Below, one piece after another: positions 1,141-63,900 of a stretch of 64,000 nt of DNA. The stretch is from Nereocystis luetkeana. Its lineage: Eukaryota; Sar; Phaeophyceae; Laminariales; Laminariaceae. The stretch is from positions 620,001-684,000 of the forward strand of contig JARUPZ010000013.1 of assembly GCA_031213475.1 (NCBI GenBank), in the 5' to 3' direction. The notes under the pieces are model-generated. The model ran no database searches, was not told the DNA's origin, and worked only from the letters and a program-made list of their open reading frames with translations. How positions within the stretch are numbered: the stretch's first letter is position 1; every line of letters begins with the position of its first letter. The translations under genes and the position numbers were made by a program.

Positions 1141-3148
1141 CTGCGAGGCGTTTTTCATACCAAAACGTGTCGCATCGTCGACGTATTCTAAACAAGGCGC
1201 ACACGACCCGTGGGTTGGGATGGGGTCGAAAGCTACTTTCCACAGAAGCGCTCGTAGTTGTGGACAAGTTTTTGTCGTCGTGTCTGCTGCAGGATGCATC
1301 ACGAATTCCACGTCTTGCTATTAATAGGCGTTCAAAGCGAGAAATATCACATAGTCAACATGAATATGACAAGTATGTATATAGGCTGTGACTACCTGGT
1401 ATATAAAATAGTACCAGGTATCAATTACATTCATTGATGATGGGCCATAGATGGCGCAAACGCCATGAAAAAATACAGATGGCGTTTAGTGATAGCTCAT
1501 GAATCATGCATACATCGGGGGTTCCAAGGCCTACGAGGGGCTTGCCTAGCCAGACGTGTCGCATCGTTGACCTGACATACACAAAGGCGCATGCCTGCAA
1601 AGCTGCAACGGAAATGTCACAACAGGGTTTACGGCTCCCTCGATCCCTCGATCCCGCTTGGTAGGTAGCCATGCAAATTCCGCGGAAGCCTAGGAATCAG
1701 ACCAAACATTAGCGTGTTAACACAGGGGAATACCTTGTTTTTGGGCCTTCATATTACATATGCCCACCCGCAACTGTACCCCGTGGGTCCCTGGCCCCAA
1801 GAGATTTGGAACCTCCGTTGGAAGGTTCGCCTCTCCGCATGGCACCACGGCCCCCACACACCACACGGGAACACACCCGATAATCGAATGTTTGGCGAGC
1901 GCGAGGGAGACAAGGGCTACGAAAGTACTCCGGGGGACACGAGAACAAAGCGTGGGTGCGGTGTCTGAATCACGGCACATGCGAGCACCTGCAAGCATGT
2001 AGCGCAGCAGCAGTGTTGTTGTACCGCCGTGGCGGAACTACAGTATGAACATTTTTCTCGATCCCACGCGTTTGAGCTCGGCAGCAAACGGTTGCTCCCA
2101 ACCCCAACGAATGAAACGAAACAAAAACGTTTCGTGACATAAAAGAATCGCGATTCGTGACAGATATTGGTATTTCTCGCCAAGAGCGCCCCTAGCTCAA
2201 AGCCACGGGTTGGGTTCGTTTCAGTTTGCCCGCTGCAGGTACTCGTTTCGATTTCGGCTTTAGATTTTCCGTTCGGCTTTGCATCGTGTTTCGTTGTTGT
2301 CATTCTGGCTCGGACTGAGGCAGTTAGCGTCTGGCTCCCCTACCTAGGGGCCGCGGAAAAGAAAAAGAACGAGAAAAATATAATATGAGAATTAAACACA
2401 AAATAAAACAGGTGGATATAGGCTATCTTGAGGGAACTGTTGGCGGTCTGTCAAGCTTGCGGCGAATTTCAAAAATAATGACATCACGATGCATTTAGCG
2501 GATTGATTCCCGGACCATACACACTCGAACACGGCGAAAATGTCGCAGCGATTTTATCACCCGTCCAAATGTTGTCGTTCGCGCCCCCTCCATCCTTTTC
2601 GCCCTGCTAGAATATTAACAGGGCATGGAGTTTTTGTGTGGCACTCGATGGTCTATACTGTTCTCCAGATATTTGAGGGTTTAGAGTGTGTGAAGAGGCA
2701 TTTTTCTTCTTGGTGAGGCGTCCCCGGATGCAGCTCCAGGTGAGTAGCTGGTATGCTCGGGCTGTGTGGGATTGTTTTACACTGGTCATGTGTCTGGATG
2801 CCTGTGGTTTGAGGGTTCGCACATCGAACAGATCAGATAAATCATCTACAGACCATCTACAGATCATTCCCTCAGTTCATGGTCTAGATATTTCACGGTG
2901 GATACAATCCTGAGTTGTATGATCTGTATGATCTCGTCCAATGTCACCTGGTGCTATTAATAGCGGTATATCTGTGTGGCCTTAGCATAAGTTTCCTGAA
3001 ATGGAGCTGTAACATACCGATCCTGCACACCAACTCATGACGGCAGGTTAGGATCCGCTTGAAGATGATCTATCTGCAGATAGACAGATCGTGATATGTA
3101 TGATTTTGTGCGACGCCGACAACAGGATTGACAAAAAAAAAAACATAC
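1141..3148. other. Intron between propeller exons C and D
   Basis: Holds TATTAATA scars at 1,318 and 2,954, a TACCAGGTA palindrome near 1,395, and GATC-rich dispersed repeat at about 2,820-3,110. Additional exons may be hidden here but none is clear. Confidence 0.6.
1318..1327. other. CTATTAATAG palindrome (probable transposon excision scar)
   Basis: First of nine exact CTATTAATAG decamers; the others are at 2954, 3885, 10897, 23469, 30465, 46289, 47447 and 58216. TATTAATA with other flanks occurs at 3776, 5562, 27726, 31524, 61582 and 63798. Near variants are at 5618 (TATTAATG) and 37023 (TATTAATC). All lie in introns or intergenic DNA. Confidence 0.75.
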
Positions 3149-3364
3149 CTGGCTGTCGTCGACATCCACGCAGGACGCCAGCAGGCCCAGGCCGTACGCA
3201 GTCCTCCAGACGCCCAAGCACTGCACTGCGCCACTAAAGAAGGTCGATCGGCACACGTCGATGGCCTGTGCCGGGGTCGCAGCCTTGTTTTTTCGCCACA
3301 TGCACACCGTGCCGCCGGCCTCGCCCGTGTAAAAGTGTCCAGGCTCCAGCCAAGCCACGCACCT
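3149..3364 (-). CDS. WD40/EML-like propeller exon C
   Basis: Seventy-two codons: RCVAWLEPGHFYTGEAGGTV, CMWRKNKAATPAQAIDVC and a second half ending CVDVDDSQ. 'VAWLxxGxFyTGExGGxVxxWrkN' is very like the blades of EML and related HELP-WD40 proteins. The acceptor CCTTGCCGAAG|AGG follows a C-rich tract (the poly-G run near 3,380 on the plus strand); donor AGCCAG|GTATGT. Phase 0 on both sides. Further exons may lie in the 4.7-kb intron between it and exon B. Confidence 0.75.
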
Positions 3365-3767: not shown

Positions 3768-3902
3768 AACCCTTGTATTAATAGGGCAAACTGTTTATGT
3801 GCCGTCTCGTTTTGGGGACACGGCTATGTACTTAGAATTTGACTGCTTTGTCCCCAAAACGGGGCTACACATAAGCAGTTTGCCCTATTAATAGAAGGGT
3901 TA
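3768..3902. mobile_element. Hairpin element, CCGTTTTGGGGACA family, with TATTAATA in both arms
   Basis: A long inverted repeat: AACCCTTG-TATTAATA-GGGCAAACTG ... CGTTTTGGGGACA on the left and TGTCCCCAAAACG ... CAGTTTGCCC-TATTAATA-G on the right, then AAGGGTT. The loop is about 30 bp. It is longer than the other family members and uniquely has the TATTAATA octamer at symmetric positions in both arms. Confidence 0.75.
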
Positions 3903-5179: not shown

Positions 5180-5630
5180 CTTATCAATGCAATTTGGACC
5201 GTGTTTTATATATGGATGGTAAGGCTTGGGACAAGCGCTATAATATTGTCAGGCGGCGAACGGGATAAAAGTAAAACCGCACCACCCGTTCGAACCATCG
5301 CGCCAGTCAGAGATGCAACACCACAGAAGAACTCCACATTACCTTCTACCTGTTACGGGGAACCAGATAATAACATGCATTTTTGTGCACTATAGCTAGG
5401 AATTATGGGATTCTCGTCTATATCTGGATGGTAATGCGTGGGACAAGCGCTACATATTGTCAGATGGTGGATGTAAACGAAAATAAAACCGCATCGCCCG
5501 TTTGAAACACCATCGCGCCAGTCAGAGATACAAAGCCGCAGAAGAACTCCGCAATACCTGCTATTAATACCTGTTGCGGGGAACCAGATTATAAAATGCA
5601 TTTTTGTGTATTACAGCTATTAATGGGATG
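5180..5630. repeat. Tandem segmental duplication of ~210 bp
   Basis: Copy one spans about 5,205-5,405 and copy two about 5,418-5,628. Shared landmarks are ATATGGATGGTAA/ATCTGGATGGTAA, GGGACAAGCGCTA, CATCGCGCCAGTCAGAGAT, CGGGGAACCAGAT and ATGCATTTTTGTG. About 80 percent identical by eye. No coding potential that I trust. Confidence 0.75.
5561..5570. other. CTATTAATAC scar inside a segmental duplication
   Basis: The second copy of the 5.2/5.45-kb duplication reads CCTGCTATTAATACCTGTTG; the first copy (about 5,344) reads CCTTCTACCTGTTA. TA versus TATTAATA again. A second, imperfect scar (GCTATTAATGGG) follows at 5,617, where copy one has GCTAGG. Confidence 0.82.
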
Positions 5631-10559: not shown

Positions 10560-12084
10560 CTGGCGGTGAGGAGGTCAGGGCGGAGTGTCGACACGATTGC
10601 CGTAGTGGTTGCGGTCGGCTTCAGTTCAGCGGTCGTCGTAACGCAGCTTTAAAAGTGCCGTCACACGGGCACAGGTATTTGATAGTGTAAGCAATGCTCC
10701 TAGTAGAGGCTTCTCAAGGGTCTGTGTTGGTAAAGTGCAGACACGCCGTGCTCGTTACCGCTAGTGACAGAGACACAATAAAGACGGGCCGATTTTCCCG
10801 ACTGAGAATTGCCTCACCGATGTGAATGCTAGTCGAAAGGATTGCTGTTTTTCGTTTTTCAAGACAACAACGTCTTTCACGAGCCCAAGCAATATCCTAT
10901 TAATAGACTATACAACGTATACACCTATTCATTGATGATCGATACAAAGCTCACTAAACCAACAGAAAACCGGCCTTGACAGGTTCGTAGAAGAGAGGAT
11001 ACACCTAATATGGGCACGGCATTTCGGGGGCAGGCACCTCGCCTATAAATACCGATGTATTGCATCATCGATATCTCGAGCCTGTTGCTGTTGATTTGGA
11101 TTAGGATTGGCGTCATCCGCAGCTGTCATCAACGACTCGAATATTGTACAGTGTACCTTCGGACTGGGACGGCTCTCTTCGAAACAAAATGAAGGCAGTA
11201 CCTTCTCATCTGCAAGCACACAATTCCCAGCTGCAGCAGGAAAATCTACTGTTACAACGTCGTGCTAAGCGCAAGGCACTATTGATAGAAAAAGGGGGGA
11301 ATGCCCATTCACTATCTACTGTAATCCCTTTTCTGCTGCAAAAATGACCTCCTGTGTCCATAAAAATTCCTATAGGTTCGCCCCCAAATATGTTCGCACG
11401 GTTCTAAAGGGTATAGATTTTCGCCCCTTCAGGGTAACTTGAGATAGAGCCACGACATCTTGGTGCCAACCCGAAAACTACCGCAAACGCGACCCCACAC
11501 TATTATCAAGTAATCTTTACCCGAACCGTGGGTTCAGCTCGAAACCGATACGTTCAAGACATAACGATACGTGAAAAAAAAAATCGGAGGAACATGATGT
11601 AATAATCAGCTCCATATATGGTGCTTAAACGCGGGGGGATACCTGGCTTTTGGGCCCCTTGTGGGTTCGGATAACTACCACGGTACTCGTATGTATTTCT
11701 ATATTTTACTATGCCCCCCCCCGCAAATAGTGGGGGCGAGGCGTCCAACTGTTGTCTTCGGTGGTTCACGGTGTCCGTCTGTTGTCGGGGGCGTGACCGT
11801 TTTTCCAGTCATGGAAAAATAAATATACAAGCGTTCTCGAAAAGCGTAGGATGTTGCCGAACAGCAAAAGCAAATGTTGCGCTCGGTGCTACGGATCACG
11901 TCCGTGCGAACTTGTGTTCTTTGAACGCCGACACTTGCTGCCCCGTCTCGCGTCGACCTCTCGGCTATGCAAGGGCGAAAAATATGTGGGTGCAGCTGTT
12001 GCGGCGGCGAGTGGTGGGGTTGCAATACTCTGTCTAAGGACCCGCCCGGCCATCCCAAATGTAGGGATTAATTCAGGGTAAGTA

Positions 12085-12300
12085 AATCGCACCACACGGG
12101 TGATAATAACACACGGGTGATCAGATAACACTACCACACGGATGATAAGATAACTCACTATCACACGGGTGATAAGACAACACACGGGTGACAATATAAC
12201 ACACGGGTGATTAGATATCGCACGGGTGATGAGATAACACACGGGTGATTAGATAGCACACGGGTGATAAGATAACACACGGGTGATAAGATAACACTTC
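12085..12300. repeat. ~20-bp minisatellite, CACACGGGTGATAAGATAA unit
   Basis: About ten copies of ACACGGGTGATAAGATAAC with small indels. Direct repeats without spacers; not a CRISPR array. Confidence 0.9.
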
Positions 12301-12504
12301 CCCTGTGACGGCTTCCAGGGCCCACGTTTTCTCCAACACACACAGCAATAAACGTAGGCTCTGGAAAGCTCTCGCCCAGACCTTTCCGTAGATGCCTCGC
12401 TCAGCGTTTTTTTTTCACGGTCTCCGATGTCAAGGAAACCAACATCTGGTTTTCCGCCCGAGGGGTTGTGTTGTCATGCCCGTTTCACGATGAACGACAT
12501 ACAC

Positions 12505-13077: not shown

Positions 13078-13195
13078 CTATTGCGGGGGACTATAGTAAA
13101 TAGAACCAAATATTGTTAGTAAAAATAGCTAAATATATACCTGGTAGGTTTTTGTGTGTATCGTAGGTCCTATTTTATATGGTCCCCCGTAATAG
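13078..13195. mobile_element. MITE, TTACGGGG family
   Basis: Same ends and interior as the copy at 20,959 (CTATTGCGGGGGACTATAG ... GGTCCCCCGTAATAG), with one internal insertion around TACCTGGTAGG. It sits in the intron just upstream of coding sequence at 13,271. Confidence 0.85.
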
Positions 13196-44400: not shown

Positions 44401-47400
44401 GTTTTAAAGGAACGACTGCTCTTCTGTCGAGGTTGAGCTCTTGCTGCTACCTGCAGCATGGCGTGCCAAATGTCCTGGTAGCCCGTCACCCCGTGATTCA
44501 ACGCGACTCGCCCCGCATCCTCGCACGAGTACCCGTCGGGACAGGAGTAGCCGCCGCCGCAGACCAGTCTTTCGCTGAGAGTTTCGAGCGTCGCGCTGTC
44601 GACGCATGTGTAGCTGAAGGCGTCGGCCCAGTAGGTGTACCTGTGTCGTTTCACGCGAAGCGGGCGTTGCAAGCGTTGATTCTGAGCAATGCCACGGTAG
44701 TGGTGGTGCCTTATTTTGTGAGGTCACTTGCATCGCTCACACGAGGAGCTCGATGCCCCAACCGAATCATGACTCCAAAAAAATGTGTTCCTGCAACCCG
44801 ACCAGTCATATGCTCTATCGATAGTCCAAAAACAATTATAGTACAGTAGTAACGATATCATGCTACCGGGAGCACCCTAACGGTATCATTTTACCGGTGC
44901 CGAAAAGGGCAACCTATACCGTGAGATGAGTCTACAGCAGTAACTGTTGCTATAGTTCACTTTGACATCGGCGGCAGATAACTTCCTTCTCGCGGAGTAA
45001 CTCGCACGCCAGCTGCCCGGGGAGCTCACCCAACATTCCCGAAGAAGAGCAGCACGCACCCTACGCACAGGAAAAGGGTGTTCACCACCTTGAAGGCGCT
45101 TATAACGGTTTCGAACAGCAGCTTGACCTGCCCCCCCGGCGTCAACGAATCCGGGAGCAACCAAGGGAAAAGCGCGCGGATGGGGTCGGCGCATTCCGTC
45201 CAGAACATATCTTTGCAACAAATGCGTCCCTCGACGGTTGACGGTCTAATGCTGTACCGTAGGTTCGGCCCCGAGCAATGCCTTATAAGGGTGGTGCCTT
45301 ATATGTTGGGGTCCTCATATGGTTGGAGCTCAATATCTCGCCCCGAACATGACTGCGAAGACGTTTATTCTCGCCACCCGACCAACAAGTTGATTTCTAT
45401 GCAACACAGAGTGGTCTTTATACAAACATGCCAACTCGGGGGAACGTAGTACTACATACCAGGGTAGTAATTAGGACCTTTTTTTTCAGCAAGATTGCTG
45501 GAATATACATAGGCTTTTGTGTGAACGATGGGTCTTTCTTTCTGTGGCCCCTCGATTTATTGTAGTACCTGGTACAAATTATCACACCAGCCGGTAGTTT
45601 TTGGCTTGAGGAGTTTAACCGGTCAGGAACATTTTGTCCCTCTCCCAGACGTGCAACCCCTACCATGGGGTGCGTCGCCCGTCAAGGCCTCTTTGTGCAT
45701 ATTGTACTAGTTTTAGTGTAGGGAGTTCCATGATGGCTGTGCATCAAGGGTGTAAGAATAGCGCCAACCGTCATCGTAGCTTAGCAACGATTAATACACT
45801 GGGTTGCCGAATATATTCTTCAGAACAATATCCACGTTGTTAGGGATACACTACTTTCATATAGACTTGGATGGCTTTCGCAGCGGGAGAACGACAAGCA
45901 AAGGAGCCTGAAGATATTCGAAAAAGGAGGCTCGCGTTGCAAGCAACGGTCAACGAAGGTATTACGAAACGGCGGCGCCTGCTCGTATTTCACTGAAACA
46001 AACTATCCATCGCTACAAGCAGTAGCGCATGGTGTTGGCCAGACCTGAACGCGGCAAATATTCATGGCTAACGATGCTCGAACATTGAACACCCTATCTG
46101 TATGTATCGGTACGGCCGAGAGGCACTTTCATCTCGTCAAAAACGCCTAAAATTCTCGTCTATTTCGAAACAACAGTTGGTGTAGGTACTTTTCTACAGC
46201 AGCGGTAGCTAGCACGTCCATCACACTGGATCATGCAAACGCCTCGGTACCAAATCAGGTAAGGAACGTCAAACGCCAATAATACGTGCTATTAATAGTT
46301 TGACATGTGATTATACCACGGCTGTGGTGGGAGGAGGGGTTGCTACTTAGTCACGCCACTCGCGCGATTGGCTCTGTGAGTCAGATCACTTCAAAACGGA
46401 CTTGAACATTTTTTGTTGGGCGCAGCTTAACAAACCCTTTCATGGTGGTGCATACAGCGGAACAGAAAAAAAACAAAAACAGTGGTATAAAAAAAAGGTA
46501 GCCACTTGTTCATTCGCGCGAGTGAGTGGCTTTGAATAAGCCGCTGGAAACAGATGCCCAAAACGTTACTCCCGTACCGTGTCGTACGTAGCCTTGTCTG
46601 AGATGCCTCCACGAGTCCACTTAAAAAACGCAGACTGCGCACCTGCTGTATGTAGGTGATGGCTCGAAGCGGCCGGAGAACGCGCAGGCCTCTCAGCGCG
46701 GATATGTCGAGCGAGCTGGAGGGCCTCACCACCTCGAGCACCAGGCTGACCACACTCTCTACAACAACAATAAAGTCCACCCTATACATCCATAACAAAA
46801 AAACGGCAGCATAGCGTACGTGTTATGATGCAGACGGCGTATACACCAGAGGGACACCGAGCCAACACGGGCAATGCAAGAGGTCATGCCTCTACAGCGC
46901 GGTAGGGGGAGGGGGTTGTGCGTATGTCATGGAGGGCCGTCGCATGACCGTAGACCCTCGCATCCGGGACGGAGCACGTCGGGTCTTCACCGGCTAGGTA
47001 GGCGTTGCTTCCACCTAGGGCGATGCGCCGTGAGGCGTTTGGCGAGTAGCATGAAGGATGAGCTACATCCTGCTCCAAGTACTAAGAACCGCTTGTAAGG
47101 TGGAGTTTCTTGCATATGGACGACTGCGTCAAACTACTCGGTTTGTTTTCCAATGTGGCAATTTCTAGCGATAGCAATGGCGTGCTGTGTAACTGCCTCG
47201 TTGGTGCCTTACCATGCACACACTACGTGATACGACAATCTCCCCTTGTATGGAGTTAAGGTCCTCCGGGTGGGGCACTTTTTCACTCGACATTGTGTGG
47301 CTGACGTGCAGTACACGCCATATATTCAGAGGTGCATCGAACCAACATGAGTAGTGCACGAGCCGTGCCTCCACAGTGAGGTACAAGAGGTGTTTTTACG

Positions 47401-49946
47401 CCCAATGTTCACACATCGGCTATATTTCTGATCCCTACGTACAGTACTATTAATAGTGATCTACAGTAGATCTTTCAGAGCAGATACATGTATGATCTGT
47501 ACAATTTAGATCGCGTTGGCGGGTAGCTTCCCGGGTTAAATCGGTATCATACAGATCCTACTCGATACCAGATATATCATAACAGCAGGAGGTGAGGATC
47601 CAGATGATCCATCTGTAGAGTATCTATCTGTAGATGATAAGTCCGATGTGTGCAACATACCACATGACAACTCCTCCAGTAAGGAAAGCTCTTCCAGGAA
47701 GGAACTACCTCGTATTTTTTCTTCTTCTTTTTATCCTCTGACGGATTGGTAAAAATACAGCACCACACTTCCACGTTCAACCTTGGTATCGTGTGTACCG
47801 TAGCCTTATACCCAACGTTAGGGTCTTAGTCCATTGGGCTAGAGGTGAAAGGTTAACCAATCGCCTACAAACTATAAGCCTCATAACACTCTCACCCCCT
47901 GGAACGGACCGGATTTTACGGGTCGACGCGCCACCACACGCGGTTCCAATTTCTGGGGATCCAGAAGCGTTTTTCAGATTCTTGACATACATGAGGAAAC
48001 TCACTTTTCTTAAAAAAAAAGCGATTTCATGGTGGACGTGAGATTAGAATTCACGACCAACGACCGATGTTCTACCGTCGTCGCCATTGGGTAGGGTCTT
48101 AGTCCGTTGGGCTAAAGGTGAAAGGTTAACCACTCGCCTACCCAATCTAAGCCTCATAACACCTACCAGGTACCAGGTACCTGGTATATATTCTGCTACT
48201 ATCCCATTTCGAGTTTGTGCTCGGCCAATGTTGGGAGGATTGTCAACGTTACAACAACCGGCCGATTTGATCTCAAGCAAGCCGGCGTCCTTTTGAGCTC
48301 CTTCGCTGCTTTTGTCTTCTACCATCATGTAGGATCGCACCTCACGTTATCACAAACACGAAGGCTCGCGCTTCCTACCTTTTCCTTTCCTTTTTTTTAA
48401 TCCTCCGGGGGGTTGGTAAAACTAAAGTTTTTTTCAAGCTCACCACATTTCCACGTTTTTACCAGGTGTTTGCTTCGCGCACAAGAGTAATTAATCGTGC
48501 GAGCGTAAAATATTGCCCCTGAAAAGGGATCTAGTCCAGCCATCATATCACGCACCAGTTCCATTTGTCCTTGAAGTAGGTAGGGATGCTAAGGGCGAGC
48601 CACTTGACCAAGAGCTCTGCGATGAAGATCCCGCTGAAGACATAGTCCCCTATGGTCAGGTATGCCTCCTGCTGAAGCAGAAAAAACGTGAAACTAATTG
48701 TCGGCGTTCCTCCCGGCGCGTGGTTCCAAGTTCGTCCCTGACTGCTGCGGCGTCAAAGTTGGTACATTCGCGCTGGAGGAAACGCAGTTAATTGTCAAGT
48801 GATCAACTCGAGAATTACACTATGATCACAACCGCTCGCAACCACATATATACCAGGTACGACATTATTACCAGGTATCATTTCAACAGGTAGTATCAGG
48901 TACCAGGTACGAACCTACAAATAAATAGTACCAGGTACCTGTTATGACTACTCAATATCGTATACGTGGTACCTGATAATATTATTTATGATACGGGTTT
49001 GGATATACTCCCAGATTTAGGGATGCCACTACGATGATACCATTGCATGGTACCAGGTACAGCAGTAGTACCAGGTACCTGGTGCTGAAATAAGTACCAG
49101 GTAGTCTACAGCAGTAGTACTCGCAGTATGCTGACATCGATGCGAAGTACCATCCGGGCTGTGAGTGCAGCAGAGTAAACCAACAATACTTTAGTAGATA
49201 AGAACACAAAACGTATCTGGACTGCCGCTGGTACCCTTTTTTCTCCAATGATCATGCCACCCGACATGGTAACTATGGGCAAACGACAAATTATGTCCGT
49301 GCTGATGCTTCGTCCTACTAATTTACAGTACACTTCGCACGTACCCGGCTCTCTGGTAAGGCATGACCTAAAAAACAGCCAAACAAAAAATCACCCGGTG
49401 TTCACAGCAGTAATAATAAGTAGGTTTCCGGTGAAATAAGAAATTCGGGAGCGGTTATGCCGAAGTTAGCGTGGAACACACCTTTTTTCTAGAAGAAGTA
49501 TAGCCTGGGCCAGTACCCCGGTTTCTTGTACCAGGTACAGTACATTAGAGGGCTGGTACTGCAGACGGGTACCAGCTCTGTGCTCACTAACTGCGAGACA
49601 GAGATGTCGCAACGCAGAATGTAGCAAAAGCAAACTACTCGTATACGTACCGGTAGGCAGTGCGAGGCTGACGTCCAGGATACGAAAGGCTATATACACA
49701 CAAGCCCAGAAAAACTGACAAATGGCTGGAGAGAAAGAGAATGACACGATGAAAGGTAAAATAAGAAAATCCTGGTATATGCTGCTGTGGCATATTTGCC
49801 CGCACCTGCTCGGCCGACTCCTTGGTTGGATCATAGAGGGCCAAGAAAACGCCGTTCACGGTGATCGTCGCCAGGATTACTCGATCGAACCACGGGTCAG
49901 ACACCAGCTGAAACGCGATTTCGTCGATCCGGGTGTTGCACATGAC
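17277..49946 (-). CDS. Four-domain voltage-gated cation channel alpha subunit (gene-level entry, 19 exons)
   Basis: Pore-forming plasma-membrane cation channel of the 4x6TM superfamily (Cav/Nav/NALCN/Cch1 type). Nineteen minus-strand exons, listed separately, total 4,410 nt (about 1,470 codons) and every junction keeps the reading frame, including five split codons at diagnostic places (WN-W-VDF, YH-G-LRV, TVL-G-MQF, AVNA-R-VSS, AVT-R-SPF). Each domain shows S1-S6, an S4 with Arg/Lys every third residue, and a pore loop ending x-x-W. Filter residues in order are D, N, N, D. The DI-DII linker is short (about 90 residues) and charged; the S1-S5 part of domain III sits in one 954-nt exon. After DIV-S6 comes a GPHH-like segment. 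No start codon or first exon was identified upstream of 49,946, so the N-terminus is incomplete. The C-terminus may continue into the exons between 15.0 kb and 1.0 kb. The family is certain; ion selectivity cannot be read from sequence. Confidence 0.93.
17477..17536. repeat. (TTG)n/(CAA)n microsatellite next to an acceptor
   Basis: About 20 imperfect TTG/GTG triplets on the plus strand. On the coding strand (CAA)n ends only 13 nt before the AG of channel exon 19. Confidence 0.9.
17965..18070 (-). repeat. Two tandem copies of the 3' end and donor of channel exon 18
   Basis: The last about 50 nt of exon 18 (CTCCTGTTCAAGTACAAGAC, then CCACTCGAACGACAAG|GTGAGA) recur at 18,018-18,070 with AACGTCAAC|GTGAGAG and at 17,965-18,017 with AACGACAAG|GTTGGG. 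The period is 53-55 bp. The first copy keeps a usable donor; the second does not. Confidence 0.85.
18078..18593 (-). CDS. Channel exon 18: domain IV S4-S6 with pore filter
   Basis: Reads VVFLTGWMSSSFPFWKVVKA, S4 (WKVVKAISMVRLVRL), S5 (VVFPLLLILAALTYLWSVCG), the turret, then GMQTMLGVATTPGSDGWVTL and S6 FALLTRFLLVNFFIITLLFK. The filter position is Asp (GSDGW), where Cav has Glu (TGEAW) and Nav has Ala. S6 keeps the conserved Asn (LVNFF). Acceptor TTTCCCAG|GTC, donor GACAAG|GTGAGA. Its last about 50 nt plus donor are present two more times in tandem just downstream (17,965-18,070). Confidence 0.95.
19242..19305 (-). CDS. Channel exon 17: domain IV S3
   Basis: A 64-nt micro-exon, too short to show as an open frame of its own. 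It reads SPFQIADSLSTVVLALVFID plus Glu: the N/Q-x-x-D start and hydrophobic run of S3. Acceptor ACATCCAG|G completes the Arg codon of exon 16; donor GACGAG|GTGAGA is phase 0. Both neighbours fix its frame. Confidence 0.88.
20373..20409. repeat. (TA)n microsatellite
   Basis: Eighteen TA units. Similar runs are at 6,990-7,012 and 25,512-25,529; a (GGGT)n run is at 7,112-7,157. Confidence 0.92.
20959..21069. mobile_element. MITE, TTACGGGG family (intact copy)
   Basis: 111 bp starting CTATTACGGGGAACCATAGT and ending with the inverted ATGGTCCCCCGTAATAG. The likely TIR starts TTACGGGG and is flanked by TA on each side, inside C...G, as expected for a TA-duplicating transposon landing in CTAG. The internal sequence has no coding capacity. 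A near copy is 8 kb away (13,078) and another at 30,173. Confidence 0.88.
21194..21501 (-). CDS. Channel exon 16: DIII-DIV linker and domain IV S1-S2
   Basis: Reads AFWTMYAAKLDNMKPDTIPA, FLFDVATNPRWGILLASLIG and IQEAVFAAVFVSEWVSRVVA. The linker is short (about 50 residues) as in Nav/Cav; no IFM inactivation motif is visible. Acceptor T(8)GCAG|GCATTC is a strong site; donor GACCAG|GTGAGA leaves two bases of an Arg codon. Confidence 0.92.
21880..22165. repeat. Dispersed ~300-bp repeat, copy 1
   Basis: Contains CATAGACCCTCGAATCCCTA, CAATGCCGAGAC, GGCTTTCACCGACCAGGC and TACTAAGAACCGCCTGTGAG. Related copies lie at 31,275-31,600, 33,225-33,445 (inverted), 46,850-47,190 and 57,140-57,250, with a fragment near 43,980. 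No coding capacity; possibly the end of a larger transposon. Confidence 0.65.
22172..22231. mobile_element. MITE, TTACGGGG family, left half (split by LINE)
   Basis: CTATTACGGAGGACCATGTT and following bases match the inverted orientation of the family up to AAGCCTATATATTTCG. The missing half resumes at 23,652 after the LINE, which shows the order of insertion. Confidence 0.85.
22232..23651 (+). mobile_element. 5'-truncated LINE (reverse transcriptase C-terminus, 3' UTR, (AAC)n tail)
   Basis: Contains the end of a non-LTR reverse transcriptase. AFGLTVSEAKTEIMCLQTK is the conserved segment after the catalytic core, followed by EFVYLGGAISADW and the thumb region (LLYGCVTWSPSK, RCIGWQKRKREDH). 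It then has a pyrimidine-rich 3' UTR (23,240-23,570) and an (ACA)n tail at 23,634-23,651. The frame changes once in a G-run near 22,308, so the copy is dead as well as truncated. It is flanked by an 8-bp target-site duplication ATATTTCG (22,224-22,231 and 23,652-23,659), and the two flanks are the two halves of one MITE. It lies in a channel intron, antisense to the gene. Confidence 0.9.
22240..23181 (+). pseudogene. LINE reverse transcriptase C-terminal fragment
   Basis: The open part of the LINE described above, ending with a stop at 23,179-23,181. Roughly 310 residues cover only the RT connection/thumb; the YxDD catalytic box and endonuclease are missing because of the 5' truncation. One frameshift in the G-run around 22,308 separates the first about 25 codons from the rest. 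The C-terminal 60 residues are Gly/Arg/Glu low-complexity sequence. Confidence 0.85.
23652..23711. mobile_element. MITE, TTACGGGG family, right half (split by LINE)
   Basis: ATATTTCGCTGTTTCTACAG through GGTCCTATTTACTATGCCT and a mutated terminus CCCCGAAATAT. Together with 22,172-22,231 it rebuilds one MITE interrupted by the LINE, with ATATTTCG duplicated. Confidence 0.82.
23838..23990. repeat. (CCATA)n pentanucleotide satellite
   Basis: About 30 imperfect CCATA/CCGTA/CAATA units. Its near end lies 10 nt from the splice donor of channel exon 15. It creates long spurious open frames in several phases. Confidence 0.92.
24000..24180 (-). CDS. Channel exon 15: domain III S6
   Basis: Completes Arg, then VSSEGLNAEQWNSAWAGLFF and the S6 helix LCVLMISIVLVLLVVGVVFS, ending LTKNSGQRLSSLKQ. 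Acceptor AATCCCAG|G, donor AAGCAG|GTGAAT. The donor is followed within 10 bases by a 150-bp pentanucleotide satellite. Confidence 0.9.
24660..24930 (-). repeat. Duplicated copy of exon 14 3' end plus following intron
   Basis: Matches 24,905-25,175 with a period of about 248 bp. Shared landmarks are CCTGATTGGTCAACA, TTCTGATTGGCTG, GGCGGCCGCGAAGA(A/G)GATCT and CGCCTTCCCGAAGCAGTCGA (exon: CGTTCCCGAAGGAGTCGA). It carries about 90 nt of exon 14 including the region of its donor, which is destroyed in the copy. Confidence 0.8.
25078..25325 (-). CDS. Channel exon 14: domain III turret and pore filter
   Basis: Reads VWQGTFGYCSD, CEVAGYEWKNASWNFDSFGN and AMQSVLVVFTFNGWHEIL. The NFD-f-g-nAM block is diagnostic for domain III. 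The filter position, Glu in Cav ('TFEGW') and Lys in Nav, is Asn here. Acceptor TACCCGACAG|GTG, donor GCCAG|GTGCGC, ending two bases into an Arg codon. Roughly 90 nt at its 3' end, with the donor, is duplicated in the following intron (24,770-24,925). Confidence 0.94.
26484..26575. mobile_element. MITE, TTACGGGG family (decayed copy)
   Basis: Contains AGTAAATAGGAC, AACCTATATATTTACT and ATTTGGTCCTATTAG, and ends AAGGTCCCCCGTAATA. The left TIR is lost. A shorter remnant of the same end lies at 26,780-26,819 (ATTTGGTCTT ... CCCCCCGTAATAG), and another degenerate one at about 45,455-45,555. Confidence 0.7.
27290..27790. repeat. ~62-bp minisatellite adjoining channel exon 13 donor
   Basis: About seven degenerate copies of GAGCTCCTC-AAGTTGAGAA ... 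ATC-CCCCATAGCATCCAAAGAT. It ends about 35 nt before the exon. One unit carries a CTATTAATAC scar (27,725). Confidence 0.8.
27824..28777 (-). CDS. Channel exon 13: DII-DIII linker and domain III S1-S5
   Basis: The largest exon (954 nt, 318 codons). It opens CHKSHVFFAWRRHYEE, then a Gly/Thr/Ser-rich linker (GGGTGTGGSS region), then a Val-rich S1 (AVEAVTTVAVVVMMVVVSLD), S2 (VLEAVAVCIFIVEAAMLIVS), S3 (DSFDVMNFALTVLSAV), S4 (VKALRALTVARLMKF) and S5 (AGGVTLFFLLQWSIVGLQ). Four introns found in domains I, II and IV are absent here, so this block may have been partly retroprocessed. Acceptor TTGTCCGCAG|TGC, donor CTCCAG|GTGAGC. The domain III S4 is weaker: K, R, R, K with an uncharged third position. 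Confidence 0.93.
28845..29110. repeat. ~30-bp minisatellite, GGCTTGACGGCTAGT unit
   Basis: Seven to eight degenerate copies of TTGGCTGGGCTTGACGGCTA, including the palindromic CTAGTCACTAG variant. In the intron upstream of channel exon 13. Confidence 0.8.
29727..29763. repeat. (GATCT)n microsatellite
   Basis: Seven GATCT units in a row, probably expanded from the GATC-rich dispersed repeat that surrounds it (29,640-29,900). Confidence 0.92.
30173..30283. mobile_element. MITE, TTACGGGG family
   Basis: 111 bp, CTATTACGGTGGACCATAG ... GTGGTCCCCCGTAATAG, closely similar to the 20,959 copy throughout, including the shared interior AAATATATAGGTTTTTGTGT. Flanked by C and G around the TA duplication. 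Confidence 0.87.
30395..30600. repeat. ~56-bp minisatellite in the intron after channel exon 12
   Basis: Four copies of GTCCTAGAGTAGGTGCGACG, TATTGCTTCAATGATCTAGA and TC(A/G)TGA. The last copy is 20 nt from the donor of exon 12. It contains the diagnostic TATTAATA insertion at 30,465. Confidence 0.88.
30465..30474. other. CTATTAATAG scar inside a minisatellite unit
   Basis: Tandem units around it read CTTGTCCTAGAGTAGGTGCG or the close TTCTAGAGTAGG. This unit alone reads GTCCTATTAATAGAGTAGG. The difference is exactly TA replaced by TATTAATA. Confidence 0.85.
30619..30956 (-). CDS. Channel exon 12: domain II pore, S6 and DII-DIII linker
   Basis: Completes Gly and reads MQFFGG ... YNSFGKAAVTMLDLFTGNLW, then S6 FYVVWLVLSRWLVVAMVVTV and a cytoplasmic segment ending ESAIMQ. 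The filter position, Glu in Cav domain II ('LTGEDW'), is Asn here (FTGNLW). S6 carries Arg and Trp (SRW), which is unusual within a pore-lining helix. Acceptor TTACAG|GG, donor ATGCAG|GTGTAT. Confidence 0.93.
31275..31600. repeat. Dispersed ~300-bp repeat, copy 2
   Basis: Carries the CATAGACCCTCGCATCCCTA block twice (about 31,303 and 31,392), then GGGTTTTCACCGACCAGGCT and TACTAAGAACTGCTTGTGAG. Unlike its relatives it has TATTAATA inserted at 31,524 in place of a single TA. Confidence 0.65.
31523..31532. other. CTATTAATAC scar inside the dispersed repeat
   Basis: Here the repeat reads GCATCCTATTAATACTAAG; the related copies at 22,070 and 33,270 (inverted) read TCCTACTAAG. Exactly TA versus TATTAATA. 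Confidence 0.85.
32677..32779 (-). CDS. Channel exon 11: domain II S4-S5 linker and S5
   Basis: Reads VDLGRLVSIVVTSTPWILNI then YAVQLLLMYTFTVL and a split Gly. Matches the 'lxxxlxxSxxxLxNvxxLLxxxxFxFxxxG' S5 pattern. Acceptor CGACCAG|GTGGAC, donor GTCCTAG|GTGAGT. The frame is fixed by both neighbours. Confidence 0.9.
33225..33445. repeat. Dispersed ~300-bp repeat, copy 3 (inverted)
   Basis: Opposite orientation to copy 2: CTCACAAGCGGTGCTTAGTA, GGTCGGTGAAAACCCGACGT and GTAGGGATGCGAGGGTCTAT. It lies immediately before the hAT-like relic. Confidence 0.62.
33512..34590 (+). pseudogene. Probable decayed hAT-type transposase
   Basis: Two degraded open segments inside the intron between channel exons 10 and 11. 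The first (33,512-33,962) reads LLDVVVEVLTRILVQTTLDM and a helical continuation. After frame changes, the end (about 34,420-34,590) reads ENTVSALSNMISSLRGSMLP then NKAERMMFLRLNRL. The last part resembles the C-terminal dimerisation domain of hAT transposases ('ERxFSxxxxixsxxRxxLxpxxxexLxFLxxN'). A zinc-finger-like CGKCGC lies between. No terminal inverted repeats were found. It could also be another domesticated or unrelated gene fragment. Confidence 0.4.
35741..35835 (-). CDS. Channel exon 10: domain II S4 voltage sensor
   Basis: Reads LRVIRIFRIARVLRLASLGK, with five arginines at every third position: the strongest S4 in the protein. Acceptor TTCTATTCAG|GC, donor CCGCAG|GTCAGT. The exon is only 95 nt and is flanked by introns of 1.8 and 3.0 kb. 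Confidence 0.95.
35978..36068. mobile_element. Hairpin element, CCGTTTTGGGGACA family
   Basis: CCCTTTTAGGACCCTAGTCC-CGTTTTGGGGACA on the left, TCCCCAAAACGGGACTGCAG and TCCCTGAAGGGTT on the right. A foldback of about 90 bp lying just upstream (in minus-strand terms) of channel exon 10. Confidence 0.7.
37588..37765 (-). CDS. Channel exon 9: domain II S2-S3
   Basis: Reads LNKAFTVMFAIETVFKLGLL and NAFDFVITLLNLVES, the classic S2 ('FtxxFxxExxxK') and S3 ('FDfxIxxxxxxE') motifs. The acceptor CCTCCCTAG|CTG follows a (TCC)n run (seen as GGA repeats on the plus strand at 37,769-37,800) that serves as the polypyrimidine tract. Donor CCATG|GTATAA leaves one G that completes the Gly codon of exon 10. 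Confidence 0.93.
37769..37812. repeat. (GGA)n and poly-G next to an acceptor
   Basis: On the minus strand this is C(10+) followed by (TCC)n, ending at CTAG|CTGAAC. The microsatellite therefore is the polypyrimidine tract of channel exon 9. Confidence 0.9.
38144..38465. repeat. Inverted repeat with CAGTA-rich arms
   Basis: The first arm (38,144-38,192, GTAACAGTACGGTACTGCGG ... AGTACTGCTGAGTCA) is the reverse complement of the second (38,418-38,465, TGACTCAGCAGTACT ... CGCAGTACCCTACTG) over about 45 bp. About 225 bp separates them. The second arm then seeds the direct repeats that follow. Confidence 0.65.
38418..38960. repeat. Degenerate tandem repeat, GCAGTACCCTACTG unit
   Basis: At least four copies of a unit of about 110-140 bp containing CAGCAGTACCCTACTGG, TACACAGTACGTT and CCAAAAATA, reaching the edge of channel exon 8's intron. 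Many short CAGTA/TACTG palindromes. Confidence 0.6.
39012..39254 (-). CDS. Channel exon 8: DI-DII linker and domain II S1
   Basis: The linker (IREEPEEEPPSPRWTPFP) is acidic and Pro-rich. It is followed by LLIRLRKAVLLELGPFSLTV and FLNAFVLSLDH, which form S1 of domain II. Acceptor CGACAACAG|TCT, donor ACAGGG|GTGAGT, phase 0 on both sides. Confidence 0.88.
40918..41009. mobile_element. Hairpin element, CCGTTTTGGGGACA family
   Basis: AACCCGTTCAGGACTGCAGC and CCCGTTTTGGGAC on the left; GTTCCCCAGAAGGGACTGCA and GTCCTAAAAGGGCT on the right. Same length and layout as the copies at 35,978 and 59,630. Confidence 0.68.
41818..42003 (-). CDS. Channel exon 7: end of domain I S6 and DI-DII linker
   Basis: Reads MFPAVLSTKLEAAIQREDKR and then a Lys/Glu-rich helix, matching the end of S6 ('NLFLAVxxxxF') and the start of the cytoplasmic linker. 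Acceptor AACACAG|ATG, donor ATTGCG|GTGAGC, phase 0 on both sides. The linker is much shorter than in animal Nav/Cav channels, and I see no AID-like beta-subunit motif. Confidence 0.88.
42130..42430. repeat. ~35-bp minisatellite, GGACAGATCAAGATCTAGAT unit
   Basis: Eight copies of ATCCGTGTTCGGACAGATCA and AGATCTAGATC with point changes. Part of the larger GATC/CTAG-rich repeat landscape. Confidence 0.85.
42852..42977 (-). CDS. Channel exon 6: domain I pore filter and S6
   Basis: Reads VFQVVSLDGWQETMW, TQDAAG and a hydrophobic S6. Aligned with the family pattern 'FQCITxEGW', the selectivity position is Asp (SLDGW) rather than Glu. S6 reads WIFFVLLLILGNVLLVS; the usual Asn of 'LLN' is Ser at the splice junction. 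Acceptor AACGCAG|GTG, donor TCC|GTCAGT. Confidence 0.92.
44170..44395. repeat. GATC/CTAG-rich dispersed repeat (representative full-length copy)
   Basis: Contains ACCTGACGTTACGAGAGGTG, GTGCAGGATTTGCGTA, GACCCAGGAAACGCGTGCGA, ATGCAGATTTAATGGCTCCC, GATACATATCGGCAATTTAC, GCCCTGAAAGATTTAGACCA and a run of GATCTATCTGATCTGTC. The same blocks in the same order occur at 8,680-8,910, 12,900-12,965, 17,700-17,930, 19,015-19,140, 30,330-30,440, 42,560-42,760, 43,480-43,680, 47,450-47,650, 51,180-51,345 and 52,010-52,290. It usually lies within 200 nt of an exon edge. Confidence 0.75.
44451..44640 (-). CDS. Channel exon 5: domain I S5-pore turret and P-helix
   Basis: Extracellular turret with six cysteines (two of them in the CPDGYSCED stretch), then VTGYQDIWHAMLQ, the start of the pore helix. 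Acceptor CGACACAG|G supplies the single base that completes the Gly codon from exon 4; donor CTGCAG|GTAGC, phase 0. Cysteine pairs in this turret are normal for calcium-channel-like proteins. Confidence 0.88.
45030..45127 (-). CDS. Channel exon 4: domain I S4-S5 linker and S5
   Basis: Reads VKLLFETVISAFKVVNTLFL then CVGCVLLFFGNVG, a typical S4-S5 amphipathic linker running into S5. Acceptor GGGGGGCAG|GTCAAG, donor GTTGG|GTGAG, leaving two bases of a Gly codon. The open frame continues upstream of the acceptor, but the join to exon 3 gives the family-typical spacing between S4 and S5, so the shorter exon is preferred. Confidence 0.88.
46643..46781 (-). CDS. Channel exon 3: domain I S3-S4 voltage sensor
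   Basis: Completes the split Trp codon, then reads VDFIVVVESVVSLVLEVV and the S4 segment RGLRVLRPLRAITYIQQ with four arginines spaced by three. This is the clearest voltage sensor of domain I. Acceptor ATGTATAG|GGTGG, donor CAGCAG|GTGCGC, phase 0 at its end. Confidence 0.95.
46850..47190. repeat. Dispersed ~300-bp repeat, copy 4
   Basis: CGTAGACCCTCGCATCCGGG, GGGTCTTCACCGGCTAGGTA and GTACTAAGAACCGCTTGTAA. Sits next to channel exon 3. It is followed at about 47,195-47,290 by another repeat (CACACACTACGTGATACG) that also occurs at about 23,735-23,810. Confidence 0.62.
48160..49110. repeat. Cluster of TACCAGGTACCTGGTA palindromes
   Basis: More than ten copies of TACCAGGTA, many fused into ACCAGGTACCTGGT. 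Single copies recur at 1,390, 8,745, 25,650, 49,530, 51,680-51,730 and 61,320. No gene lies here apart from channel exon 2 at 48,556. Confidence 0.75.
48556..48671 (-). CDS. Channel exon 2: domain I S2 and start of S3
   Basis: Reads QEAYLTIGDYVFSGIFIAEL followed by VKWLAL and FKDKWNW. This is the typical S2 pattern (Asp, then Phe, Glu and Lys as gating-charge partners) ending at the Trp-Asn-Trp before S3. Acceptor TTCAG|CAGGAG, donor AACTG|GTGCGT. It ends two bases into a codon that is completed exactly by exon 3. Confidence 0.9.
49806..49946 (-). CDS. Channel exon 1 (first recognised): domain I S1
   Basis: Codes for the N-terminal flank and S1 of domain I. The text DPWFDRVILATITVNGVFLA matches the strongly conserved 'hPxFDxxILxxIxxNxVxLA' start of four-domain channels. 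Acceptor ...ATACTCAG|GTCATG and donor GAGCAG|GTGCG; it ends in phase 0 with ...ESAEQ. An ATG is the second codon, but the exon opens after a good acceptor, so coding exons or a 5' UTR exon probably lie upstream. Confidence 0.9.
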
Positions 49947-57250: not shown

Positions 57251-58863
57251 ACAGACAGGGGGCGGGGGTATATATACAAATCTTTGAGAGGAAAAAATGC
57301 TTTTGGTTCATTCGTCCAGAAAACCCACCCGACTGATTTGTTTTCCACTTTGAGCTTTTCAGGAGTGTGCTGTTGTTTTGTATTTTGTCATGCACCCCGG
57401 GCGGCCTTATTGAAATGGGTGATGGTATTCTACACTGGAATGGTGTGCAATAACTCTGCATGTCAGTTGCCACCGTGACCATGCTGGGACCCTTTAGGGT
57501 CTTGAGCCCTTCGAAAGTCCTGTCCTGTAATCTGGAATTGGCGGTGCTGAATATTTTCTGACCATTTGGTGGGTCCATTTCGAGGCGGGGATGGTGGGCA
57601 TTCCCGTTGAAATGCCGTTGATTGCTACGAACATCAATCGGGCTGTATGCTTCCGTTAATAGTTTATCAAGGGCACGTGAGCTTGTATACAATTCGCCGC
57701 ATAACGTACCATGGTATGATTATATACAATCTAGCTCACGAGCACATACATCGTATTACACAGCACCATACCAGGGACGCAGCTGCAGTACAGTAGATAA
57801 AGAGCACTTAAAGGTACATTTGGCTAACTCGCAGTACAGAACATGTATAATAAGGCTATGACACTACTGTACCGTCAGAACACGCCCGCTAAAGAAGGCT
57901 AGGGTGATACCAGTATATATTTTCGGGATAGTGGAAATTTCGGGAGTCCTTACATACTCAATTTGGTATATAACTCACCCATCAAGGAAAAATGGGGACT
58001 ACTGACTGTATCGGTATACCATATTTTCGTCGGTATCCAGGTCTAATTACTACGGTAGAATCTTCCTTGTCTGAAGCCACTGGGCTGTTGATTCCCTTTT
58101 ATGCGTGGGTGGTGCATGGTCTGATTGGAGCAAGCGCAAAAAGTACGGTAGATGGCAAATGAAATCATTCTAGCTAGAATAAAAGTAGAATCCCAGCCTG
58201 GACCAGCGCTCCTTACTATTAATAGGTATCCTGCACTGTACCTCCTGCCCCGACCGGCCCGCTAGGCCCAACGCCAGGAATGGATCCGACAAAAGGATGC
58301 AGCTATGGCCCGATTCCGCAGGGAATGCGAGGCCGAGGTGGGCCGTGTCAAGTGAGAACCCCGAGGAAAATAAAAACACGCCTCCTTCTTCATATGTTGT
58401 TCTGTCCACTCTAGTGTCTGTGAGGTCTCGAGTTTTGACCTGGGCATCGCCGGGGTGCAAATGCAATTGATACTAATAATGACGCAAAAAATCTAGAATT
58501 AACAACTTGGTAGCTGCGCTTGCTGGGATCGACCGACAATGGATATCGCGGGCTGTGATCGGATGCTGTCGTTTTCACTACTGTAAGTCAACATGCATAT
58601 TTTTAGCGAATATGTATAGATTGCAGTTTTGCGGGCTGGACTCCACGCCTTTTTTCTTGGGGGGAAAGGTTCCTCTTTCCTTCTGAACTGGCCCACCTGG
58701 GTGAAGAGTAAAATGGGCGTGGTTGGGTTCCAAGCTTTTTGTTTTTTGTTAGGCGAAACCGCTTCGCACATAGTAGGCTGCACTGTTGTGTGTCTGTCCT
58801 GTGTGCCAATCAATGGCGAAAGGCCTGCATATTTCCGCCTTCATTCGCAGGTCGCTGATGGAG

Positions 58864-60746: not shown

Positions 60747-60910
60747 ATGTCACGATACTCTCCCGTTCGTTCTTGCGCGTTGTCTCGGACCCCAGACTGT
60801 TCCTCAGCGCTGGTTCTGCTCTCGACCGAATCCGCAGCGGGGAGGCAAGGCTTGTTTTGAGACTGGAGGGGTGCTTTCGAGCGCTCCGTGAGCTGATCAG
60901 CGGCAGATGA
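60747..60910 (+). CDS. Candidate terminal exon of the plus-strand gene
   Basis: Reads DVTILSRSFLRVVSDPRLFL, SAGSALDRIRSGEARLVLRL and EGCFRALRELISGR, then stop TGA at 60,908-60,910. Acceptor GTCTAATCCAG|AT needs a preceding exon ending one base into a codon, whereas exon 5 leaves two, so one exon is missing between 59.45 and 60.75 kb or a boundary is wrong. The Leu/Arg-rich helical sequence argues that it is real coding. Confidence 0.45.
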
Positions 60911-63900
60911 TCGGCTGATAAAGTGTTCAAGAAAGGCAGTTCTCTAGGAGAGACAACGCAATATAACTTGAGGGCAGATCCCATCCGCCGATCTGAGAAC
61001 AGCATTTACACGACCCATGGAGCGCTAGGACAGCACCGGAGATGGGGGCGTAGTTTCTAGACGTTGTACCACACAGGAAGAGAGTCCACAGTATAGCTCT
61101 AGGTGCTGTGGCACACAGCGACAGCCAAGTAGTTTCTAGACGTTTGCGGCACAGGAGACAGTACGACACGCCGACCGTTAACCCAGTGGTTACGGTGCGC
61201 CTCTGACAGGCAGTTATACGCAAACAACGTACGAAACCCTAAGGCACTACTATACTATTAGGGTATTATTTTACTATTAGGGTATTATATACAGAGGCGT
61301 GGTACGATAGGGGAACCGTGTACCAGGTATTGCCCAAATTTTGTCTCTGGCTGACGGGGCTCATAAGGTGAGGTACTGTAGAACAGCCGTATCGTTTGGC
61401 ATATGTTTGTATGTTGCGGTGTATGACTAGGCCACGGGATCAGTCATCGAGTTGTCCTTTCATCTCGAAAAGTCTATGGTTCGTGGAAAGTGCAGAGCTC
61501 CTTCCTTCAGTGAGGGAGCCTCAGAAAAAACTACTGTGGCCATAGGTGCGCCCTGACCGTAGCATGCGCCTATACCTCTACTATTAATACTATACGTCTA
61601 TTGGTCTATTCAACAAGCGCGCGGCACCAATTTGAACATGCCATGCAAAGGCGCACTCGAAGACAACGCATGGGTTTTCAACTCGGTTAGGTGTGCCCAA
61701 TCTGGCAATGTATGGTGTATGCATGCTACATCATACCAGTAGGTGCACACAACGTTTTTATCCCTGGATACGCCTTTTTACATGATGAATACCGCACGCG
61801 GTACCATGAACTCAACTACTGCGTGCGGTGCATCTATACTACCAGTGTTACAGTGTGTGTTTGGTTTGGTGGGTGCATTTAGAGGTGCTGTGCAAGGACT
61901 ATAGAATGCGTTGAAGCAAGCCACACAAAAAACGTCGACAAAGCAAAAGTGTGCGTCTGAGCAACATCCTACTGCCGGCGTTGCGCTTAGTTTTTGATGG
62001 GATCCGCTTGCTTTGACTATACTACCGTACCGCAGAGTTGTTTAAGGGCAACGGAGTCTCCCACCTATTCGCACAGCTTAAATAGGCTACGAGTATAAAA
62101 CGGCGAATGAGTGTTCATGGCCACGACTAAGCGCGAGGGCGTTACCGTTATCAAGGGACCCGGTCGGGAAATTATCGTTCGTCTCGCCATAAGGACGGTG
62201 CTCGCGCTGCCGGGTCACTCGGGCCTAGAGCCTGCCATCTAACTACCGTTGGGAAACACTGGCTACTTATGTAGGAGACACTACTGATCGTTTATATTCA
62301 ACGGCGACTCATTGCGGATATTTATTTTCAATTGTTATTATCACTTTCACTTTCCAGCTTCACTCTTAAGAGGTTTCATCCTCAGCGATCTTCTGGACAA
62401 GCTGTGGTCACAGGTGTCGTCCCTTCTCCCTCCCGGTACGCGTGCCTTTATTTTTATCGCGCATAGGGCTCAGCTTTCCCGCTGCTCGTCGATGTTTATC
62501 GGATGCTGCTAACTCAAGCTCTCGTGCTTTCCGCTATCACTTCGCATGCAAGAAAAAACCCTCACGACTATGCACTCGGTGAGACTCGAACCCACGAAAT
62601 TGATCTTTGTAAAAGAGTAGGCACACAGACCACCTACCAAGCCACCGGGGGCGCCAATAACCTCTCTTGGACCCCGATATAGCGATTTAAAAAAACGATA
62701 ACTTTGGCGTTATCAGCCGCCTACGAACAGCGTGAGCGTACAGCAGGACGGGTAGGATACTCTGCGCCCGTGCCGTACGACTCCAAACATTGCAACTCGG
62801 GCACCAAATTATATCACCCCCCAATCGTGCAGCGCCATTTGTTGCAATCCTCACTTTTCATCGTCTATTAGTTCTCCCCTGCGAAGCCTCAAGAGCGAAT
62901 GATACAGCGGTAGTCTTTGCGGCGGCCCACGCCGACTGCTGCTCCACTCAAACGAAAGCAGTGGCTTCCATGTTGGAGGAGCCAAGATAAACCGAAAGTC
63001 CACAGACTCACAACAGTCTCATTGGCCAACCCATGGAGCTCTTCCCAAGGGGGCGGACAAATCCCACACAGTACATGTGCGTAAAAAAAAACAGCAGTTT
63101 CATCGCTTCGACGTCAACCAACTTGCGTGAAATGCGGGCTCTTGGAATTCGCACATGGCTGTAATGACATCGTGCGAGATGACCGTTTCAACCTAATACT
63201 GCAACAAGAGTCAGCCGGATGCGTTAATCACCTGAGACCGAGCGCCACCTCCTCGCCCTAACGGCTAGCCCGGAGACGGTAAGCGAGCACACCTAGTGCA
63301 TCCGTACCCTGCTTTACGACATAGGGATGCCATGTCTATTCTTGCGGCGCAAGGTGATTCCTGTTCCATGGTTCTGAAACCTTCCTGGTGCACAAAGGCC
63401 TGAACAAAGACGCCCGTCTTGACGAGGGATCTACAACCAACACCAACCCGAGTGCAGCGTGATCACAACCCCCCACTGACAGATCTCCTTACACATAGTG
63501 CTGTGCAGGAAACCAATGGCAATCGCGTGATAGAGCTATACAGAGTAGGCGAAACAACTTGCAGACATGCGCCAACACAGACAGATGTAGATCCAGCCAA
63601 CATGTACGACAAGGAGCAGTGCAGTCCGCATATATAATGAAATGTAACGGATCACTTGTAGATATCTAACGGGCAAATCTAGCCACTGTGAACTGTGGCC
63701 TTCGTACAAACATACTTAAAGTTCCTTTACAAAAGCCAAATACTGCATATATCGTGTTGACGTTGTCTTTGACCACTGCCGTGGTGCGCCGTAGTACTAT
63801 TAATAAGGCGGCGTGAAGTCTATCACTCCCAGTAACGATCAACACTCCCGACAGCACTCGCGACCTAAATCTACCAACTTCGCTTAGCAACAAGGCATCT

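Follow-up and report, generated by a model that had tools for sequence, protein, structure and literature searches.

The sequence analysed here is a stretch of 64,000 nucleotides from the brown alga Nereocystis luetkeana (contig JARUPZ010000013.1, positions 620,001 to 684,000), referred to below as the window; all counts, alignments and flank tests cover this window. It holds 15 copies of the palindromic octamer TATTAATA, nine of which extend to the decamer CTATTAATAG, a resident family of miniature inverted-repeat transposable elements (MITEs), here the TTACGGGG family, several tandem arrays and the exon stretches of an ion channel on the minus strand (Table 1). The initial annotation had counted 15 octamers and nine decamers and had read them as excision scars of the MITE, and our recount returned the same numbers at the same positions. 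The origin of the octamer is the subject of this report.

Abundance of the octamer and its empty sites

The octamer is far more frequent than expected: in 100 dinucleotide-preserving shuffles it reached a mean of 0.74 and a maximum of 3 copies, making the 15 observed copies approximately 20-fold above chance, whilst the nine decamers compare with a mean of 0.04 and a maximum of 1; a third-order Markov model gave expectations of 0.95 and 0.04, respectively. Among the 16 palindromic octamers of the same letters, TATTAATA is exceeded only by two AT dinucleotide repeats, with the remaining 13 present in 0-3 copies, and among the 160 palindromic decamers that have a single C/G in each arm, CTATTAATAG ranks first with 9 copies, followed by a runner-up with 2. 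When words of the form TA-[A/T]4-TA were compared, the core TTAA was found 15 times and TATA 34 times (AT repeats), with TTTT and AATA next at 5 each. The outer bases are also unusual, as C..G surrounds 9/15 octamers (one in an inverted repeat) when CTAG makes up 4.7% of TAs (p 5e-9). We also ranked near-palindromes of 7-11 bases that occur 4 or more times, leaving aside strictly periodic words: the top-ranked words were TACC[AT]GGTA, CTATTAATAG, TAC[AT]GTA, TATTAATA, GTACC[AT]GGTAC, GATCTAGATC, ATCTAGAT and TAC[CG]GTA, of which GATCTAGATC and ATCTAGAT are found in tandem arrays and every other one has a TA-X-TA core. Chance and base composition are ruled out as the source of the octamer excess by the shuffles and the palindrome controls. 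A microsatellite or tandem-repeat origin was also rejected: 13 sites have unrelated flanks, and in the array around 30466 the octamer is present in one of four units. The earlier suggestion that each decamer records one event needs correction, since the octamers at 3776 and 3886, the latter among the nine decamers, lie in opposite arms of a single inverted repeat and are hence not independent; this pair has to be removed before events are counted. Literature searches for the exact words TATTAATA, CTATTAATAG and TATTAATAG returned only papers that appear unrelated from their titles and the starts of their abstracts, and those for TACCAGGTA, TACCTGGTA, GTACCAGGTAC and GTACCTGGTAC returned no paper.

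Evidence for the nature of the octamer comes from repeats within the window. A motif-blind self-alignment, in which gaps of 4-40 bases between repeats were collected (137 alignments, 39 gap rows), revealed three distinct insertions of TTAA+TA (at 5562, 30466 and 31524), and no other TA-type insertion recurred: CCTGG+TA was inserted at one place, in a MITE copy when compared to three other MITE copies, and five other TA-type gaps (CAC, GA, ACAC, CAGATCA and a 10-mer) occurred once each. The clearest case is the array at 30394-30620, with CTATTAATAG in one unit against CTAG in three. For the repeat at 31524, two copies are empty and exhibit a single TA (33269-33270 on the minus strand, and one in 21894-22119); in a third copy (46904-47136), the octamer position (47070-47082) is occupied by another insertion of 9 bases, TGCTCCAAG. 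In a second alignment of 299 pieces, repeats cover 5/15 octamers, of which three align well, each with at least one empty copy, and two (2955 and 47448) have alignments too poor for judgement. A junction as predicted for the empty state (18 bases on each side of TA) was identified for 3/15 octamers (33-35/38 bases) versus 4/265 controls, for which other TA-N4-TA sites were used (raw Fisher p 0.004); after removal of two AT-repeat controls and one control overlapping 31524, the control level was 1/262 (p 0.0005). At three sites, TATTAATA is six bases added to a pre-existing single TA, with the TA duplicated. The initial annotation had expected a single TA in empty sites of other strains, and a single TA was indeed present at these three sites, here in paralogues within the window rather than in strains.

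Elements of the piggyBac type duplicate a TTAA target, which is exactly restored upon excision. Such a target was rejected because the empty sites, which read TCTAG or CCTAG, TTCTACC and TCCTACT, all lack TTAA.

A functional motif would be an explanation of another kind: CTATTAATAG fits CTAWWWWTAG, and the form CTA-[A/T]4-TAG, which we take to be MEF2-like, could mark a protein-binding site, or the word could be a splice-related signal. None of the 15 octamers falls within the six placed exon stretches matching Ion_trans, as would suit such a role; the earlier statement that all lie outside exons could be checked for these stretches, where it holds. We nevertheless regard a functional motif as improbable, as TTAA stands out among the TA-[A/T]4-TA words, apart from TATA, and a clean six-base presence or absence between repeats is not expected of such a motif. 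The exon-edge or splice signal was rejected directly: open frames adjoining the sites are no longer than those at 3000 random positions, with no sign of an exon edge.

An oriented flank on one strand

All 13 octamers outside the inverted repeat are immediately preceded on the plus strand by the trinucleotide TVC (T at -3, V for A, C or G at -2, C at -1), and 8/13 have a G on the 3' side; TVC-TATTAATA on the plus strand is a better description of these 13 sites. It is found 13 times on the plus strand and 0 times on the minus strand, with plain TVCTA balanced at 148 and 149, and all four TVC-flanked variants carrying one mismatch fall on the minus strand. Under random site orientation this strand lock has a two-sided p of 0.0002, for a pattern that was seen post hoc, and the asymmetry is the largest among 1300 left/right palindrome comparisons, if little beyond their tail (z 3.7, all 15 sites). 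Presence of TVC on at least one side at 13/15 sites has a p of 7e-13, for letters picked after seeing the data. We accept TVC-TA as a genuine target flank and treat the strand lock as a lead. A symmetric transposon or transposase does not predict such a one-sided, one-strand flank, which would be unexpected for such an element should it hold elsewhere. The two genes of judgeable strand, the ion channel and a conserved exon in 862-1317, are both on the minus strand, and transcription direction is therefore one candidate cause of the strand lock.

The same data could be explained by a strand-bound insertion, in which six bases would be added after TVC-TA on one strand, following the direction of replication or transcription. 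The restriction to the plus strand, the invariant T and C of the flank and the common strand of both genes all speak for this; we still consider it unlikely, given that the orientation was recognised post hoc and barely leaves the tail of the comparisons, that the one-mismatch variants all lie on the other strand and that a perfect palindrome between two TAs suits ordinary transposon ends. To our knowledge, there is no enzyme that would perform such an insertion. It is likewise doubtful that a one-directional mobile process along the chromosome leaves an invariant palindromic scar approximately every 5 kb; if it does, each scar would record a past event and mark its strand. A technical artefact of assembly or read processing, by which an identical six-base string is added on one strand, would also produce a one-strand orientation, as expected for anything written into the file. 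We give this very little credence: the insertion keeps to TA and to an oriented flank, the other TA-bounded classes described below are free of such strand bias in their flanks, and we know of no artefact that adds TTAA+TA.

Excision as a probable source of the octamer and the candidate parent

The explanation that we favour, with moderate confidence, is that at least 3/15 octamers, and probably the 13 with the common flank, were left behind as footprints when a cut-and-paste element that targets TA was excised. Such an element would enter a TA that follows T-[A/C/G]-C, often with G after it, and entry would duplicate the TA; its loss would leave the four bases TTAA between the two TAs, converting TVC-TA into TVC-TA-TTAA-TA. 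The constant product could arise from a blunt join made two bases in from either end of the element or, alternatively, from TTAC overhangs that pair through their TA and are then trimmed. The former presence of the element, its Tc1/mariner type, its enzyme, the repair route and the origin of TTAA as two bases per end are all points that we infer from sequence. Insertion at TA with the TA duplicated, and one TA when empty, as in Tc1/mariner-type elements, was found at 3/15 sites, these being the only well-aligned ones. A symmetric target preference around the TA is usual for the Tc1/mariner family and is lacking in the 13 TVC octamers. As TVC is one-sided in 13/13 cases, with its mirror in 0/13, we say that the octamers work like Tc1/mariner-type excision footprints rather than that they are such footprints.

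Several points weigh against excision. The flank is one-sided, with T at the mirror position on the right at 3/13 sites and a mirrored TVC at none; the direct test covers only 3/15 sites, and one weak alignment at 2955 is without the whole octamer, TA included. A transposase was not found in the sequence searched, which was not genome-wide, and no element was caught with exactly these flanks. Only a single type of footprint is seen, whereas experimental work describes footprints of variable length (0-3 or 0-4 bp in PMC7913693 and PMC9976928). If most octamers are nonetheless excision footprints, the count of a short word would gauge the coming and going of an element, including losses that are invisible to repeat annotation.

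Among the repeated families detected in the window, the TTACGGGG MITE alone has ends that fit. Its copies display the characteristics of MITEs (109-116 bp including both TAs, terminal inverted repeats differing at 1-2 of 14 positions, a flanking TA at either end), and the three full copies all read C-TA-[TT(A/G)CGG...CCGTAA]-TA-G, in agreement with the TA duplication inside C...G described previously. That this MITE left the scars, by retention of two bases per end together with the TA duplication, is a special case of the favoured explanation that we can propose only tentatively. Two retained bases per end between the TAs would yield TT+AA, the core of the octamer, and an outward C is common to scar ends (24/30) and MITE ends (8/10); in addition, CTATTA without a following A occurs 21 times, 7 of these being MITE ends. 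The flanks, however, do not match: TVC precedes 13/13 scars versus 1/4 MITE left ends (p 0.006), its mirror follows 1/6 MITE right ends, and identity of the target flank between scars and intact copies is thus absent. Furthermore, of the footprints that can be assembled from 0-5 bases of each MITE end, TTAA shows a clear excess (15 versus 0.9 expected) and the others do not: TT/AA (39 versus 28.8) and TTA/TAA (10 versus 10.6, near background), which are the products to be expected, in place of TTAA, if overhangs of 2 or 3 nt paired, are not clearly enriched, T/A (134 versus 107) and TA (88 versus 35, mixed with AT repeats) are raised, and longer ones have 0-2 sites each. Should the MITE be the parent, its excision would have essentially one repair product. 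Of the initial annotation's proposal, the six-base addition at a single TA, the fit of TT+AA to the MITE ends and the C that mostly precedes both have found support, and the link to the TTACGGGG MITE itself has not; the parent may be either this MITE with an unexplained flank effect or an element not seen in the window.

Other candidate parents were rejected. One with TTAA ends finds no counterpart, as CTATTAA without a following TA occurs only twice, with unrelated continuations. The TA-bounded ends TTAATAGGGC of the inverted repeat at 3768-3901 match perfectly over 14 bases; considered as a TTAA-ended parent (3776-3893, TA-TTAATAGGGC ends), it is present in a single copy, in G..G and without TVC. 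A search of viral contigs for relatives of the MITE end, with one pattern, found none.

Tc1/mariner footprints are stated as 2-4 bp in the accessible part of PMC7913693, and the residue of the octamer is 4 bp, TTAA, equal to TT+AA of the MITE ends, though other residues built from these ends are not clearly enriched and the MITE is only a candidate parent. In the grass Thinopyrum, loss of a Stowaway MITE is described as leaving TACT...AGTA, two bases per end, with TA on both sides and hence the same two-plus-two geometry as TA-TT-AA-TA; in the section available, several footprints are reported at one locus, whereas here there is one constant product, a one-sided flank and only a candidate parent (PMC1925063). 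The Tc1/mariner element ZB and the pogo-type Passer are alike in their short footprints (0-3 and 0-4 bp) and, for the zebrafish elements, in TA duplication, but there they are reported as measured in cells whose transposase was known, unlike footprints deduced purely from a genomic sequence (PMC7913693, PMC9976928). In the brown alga Ectocarpus, 17 Mariner-Tc1 families with almost 12,000 copies, mostly non-autonomous (MITEs), are described, in an account whose main text, as far as available, is without the words excision and footprint (PMC12477816).

Other TA-bounded palindromes and neighbouring features

The classes TACC[AT]GGTA, TAC[AT]GTA and TAC[CG]GTA are palindromic except for one central base, the shape expected from pairing of identical overhangs, as in Sleeping Beauty-type footprints, and the shape of the latter two resembles 3-base Tc1-like footprints. 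TACC[AT]GGTA is present 22 times versus 0.57 expected, TAC[AT]GTA 41 times versus 9.0 and TAC[CG]GTA 30 times versus 7.3 (a four- to five-fold excess for these two); the four TA-bounded classes, the octamer included, together amount to 108 sites in 64 kb versus approximately 18 expected, arrays included. TACC[AT]GGTA has an outward G at 26/44 ends and G..C at 7/22 sites, and is sometimes nested head to tail, often within GTAC (48164-48186, 25650-25665, 49051-49103, 13138-13146). Its empty sites comprise a clear one at 13138, with a single TA and a clean 7-base insertion within a MITE copy, and a marginal one at 49051 (26/38), against controls of 4/232. TAC[AT]GTA (4/41) and TAC[CG]GTA (4/30, three in an array) displayed no clear excess of empty sites versus 12/219 controls (eleven in that array), and 44292 (27/38) is the one possible empty site of TAC[CG]GTA outside the array; repeats cover 17/71 sites of these two classes, with few clean insertions. 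Three TAC[CG]GTA sites lie in a TACCG/TACCA array near 23900. Of the three classes, the repeats support only TACC[AT]GGTA as an insertion, at one site. Footprints could make up a visible share of non-coding sequence, with clear empty sites in only two of the four classes.

Table 1. Octamer sites, associated repeats and MITE copies in the window.
Feature	Position	Strand	Remarks
TATTAATA, scar candidate	1319..1326	+	flank TGC / G
TATTAATA, scar candidate	2955..2962	+	flank TGC / G; paralogue alignments poor
Inverted repeat, TATTAATA in each arm (3776, 3886)	3768..3901	.	53-nt arms, 28 nt apart; outside TVC class
TATTAATA, putative scar	5562..5569	+	flank TGC / C; related empty site, single TA, at 5347; 34/38 match
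TATTAATA, scar candidate	10898..10905	+	flank TCC / G
TATTAATA, scar candidate	23470..23477	+	flank TGC / G; within span of minus-strand ion-channel exons
TATTAATA, scar candidate	27726..27733	+	flank TAC / C
Tandem array	30394..30620	+	CTAG units with TA at 30417, 30521, 30570; CTATTAATAG at 30465-30474; internal empty-site control
TATTAATA, putative scar	30466..30473	+	flank TCC / G; 35/38 match to predicted empty site
TATTAATA, putative scar	31524..31531	+	flank TCC / C; 33/38 match to predicted empty site
TATTAATA, scar candidate	46290..46297	+	flank TGC / G
TATTAATA, scar candidate	47448..47455	+	flank TAC / G; paralogue alignments poor
TATTAATA, scar candidate	58217..58224	+	flank TAC / G
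TATTAATA, scar candidate	61582..61589	+	flank TAC / C
TATTAATA, scar candidate	63798..63805	+	flank TAC / A
Full MITE copy	13079-13194	+	C-TA[TTGCGGGG...CCCCGTAA]TA-G; carries inserted CCTGG+TA at 13138-13146
Full MITE copy	20960-21068	+	C-TA[TTACGGGG...CCCCGTAA]TA-G
Full MITE copy	30174-30282	+	C-TA[TTACGGTG...CCCCGTAA]TA-G
Partial MITE copy	22171..22231	-	–
Partial MITE copy	23642..23709	-	–
Partial MITE copy	26487..26575	-	–
MITE end fragment	26784..26819	-	E 0.007

One additional, weak match to the MITE (45465-45534, E 0.002) is not listed among the copies. Exon stretches matching Ion_trans, which belong to the ion channel on the minus strand, are spread over approximately 29 kb in 18120-46792; of the six matches, one falls slightly short of the Pfam cut-off. 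For the conserved exon in 862-1317, relatives share 61-98% identity, and Pfam gave no match, as was also the case for ten other reading frames. Public databases contain near-identical proteins, with 99% identity across 66% of the query in one case and 98% across 96% in another. A 3.2-kb contig in an Oligoflexales bacterium bin contains a reverse transcriptase-like stretch that is 81% identical to the window fragment 22243-23181; this contig, which contains none of the six words searched, is probably eukaryotic contamination, and no relatives of the reverse transcriptase fragment were found in viral contigs. Finally, minisatellite-like arrays with a start-to-start spacing of 10 to 125 bases are located at 12069-12312, 23822-24011, 27301-27674, 38399-38831 and 42132-42441.

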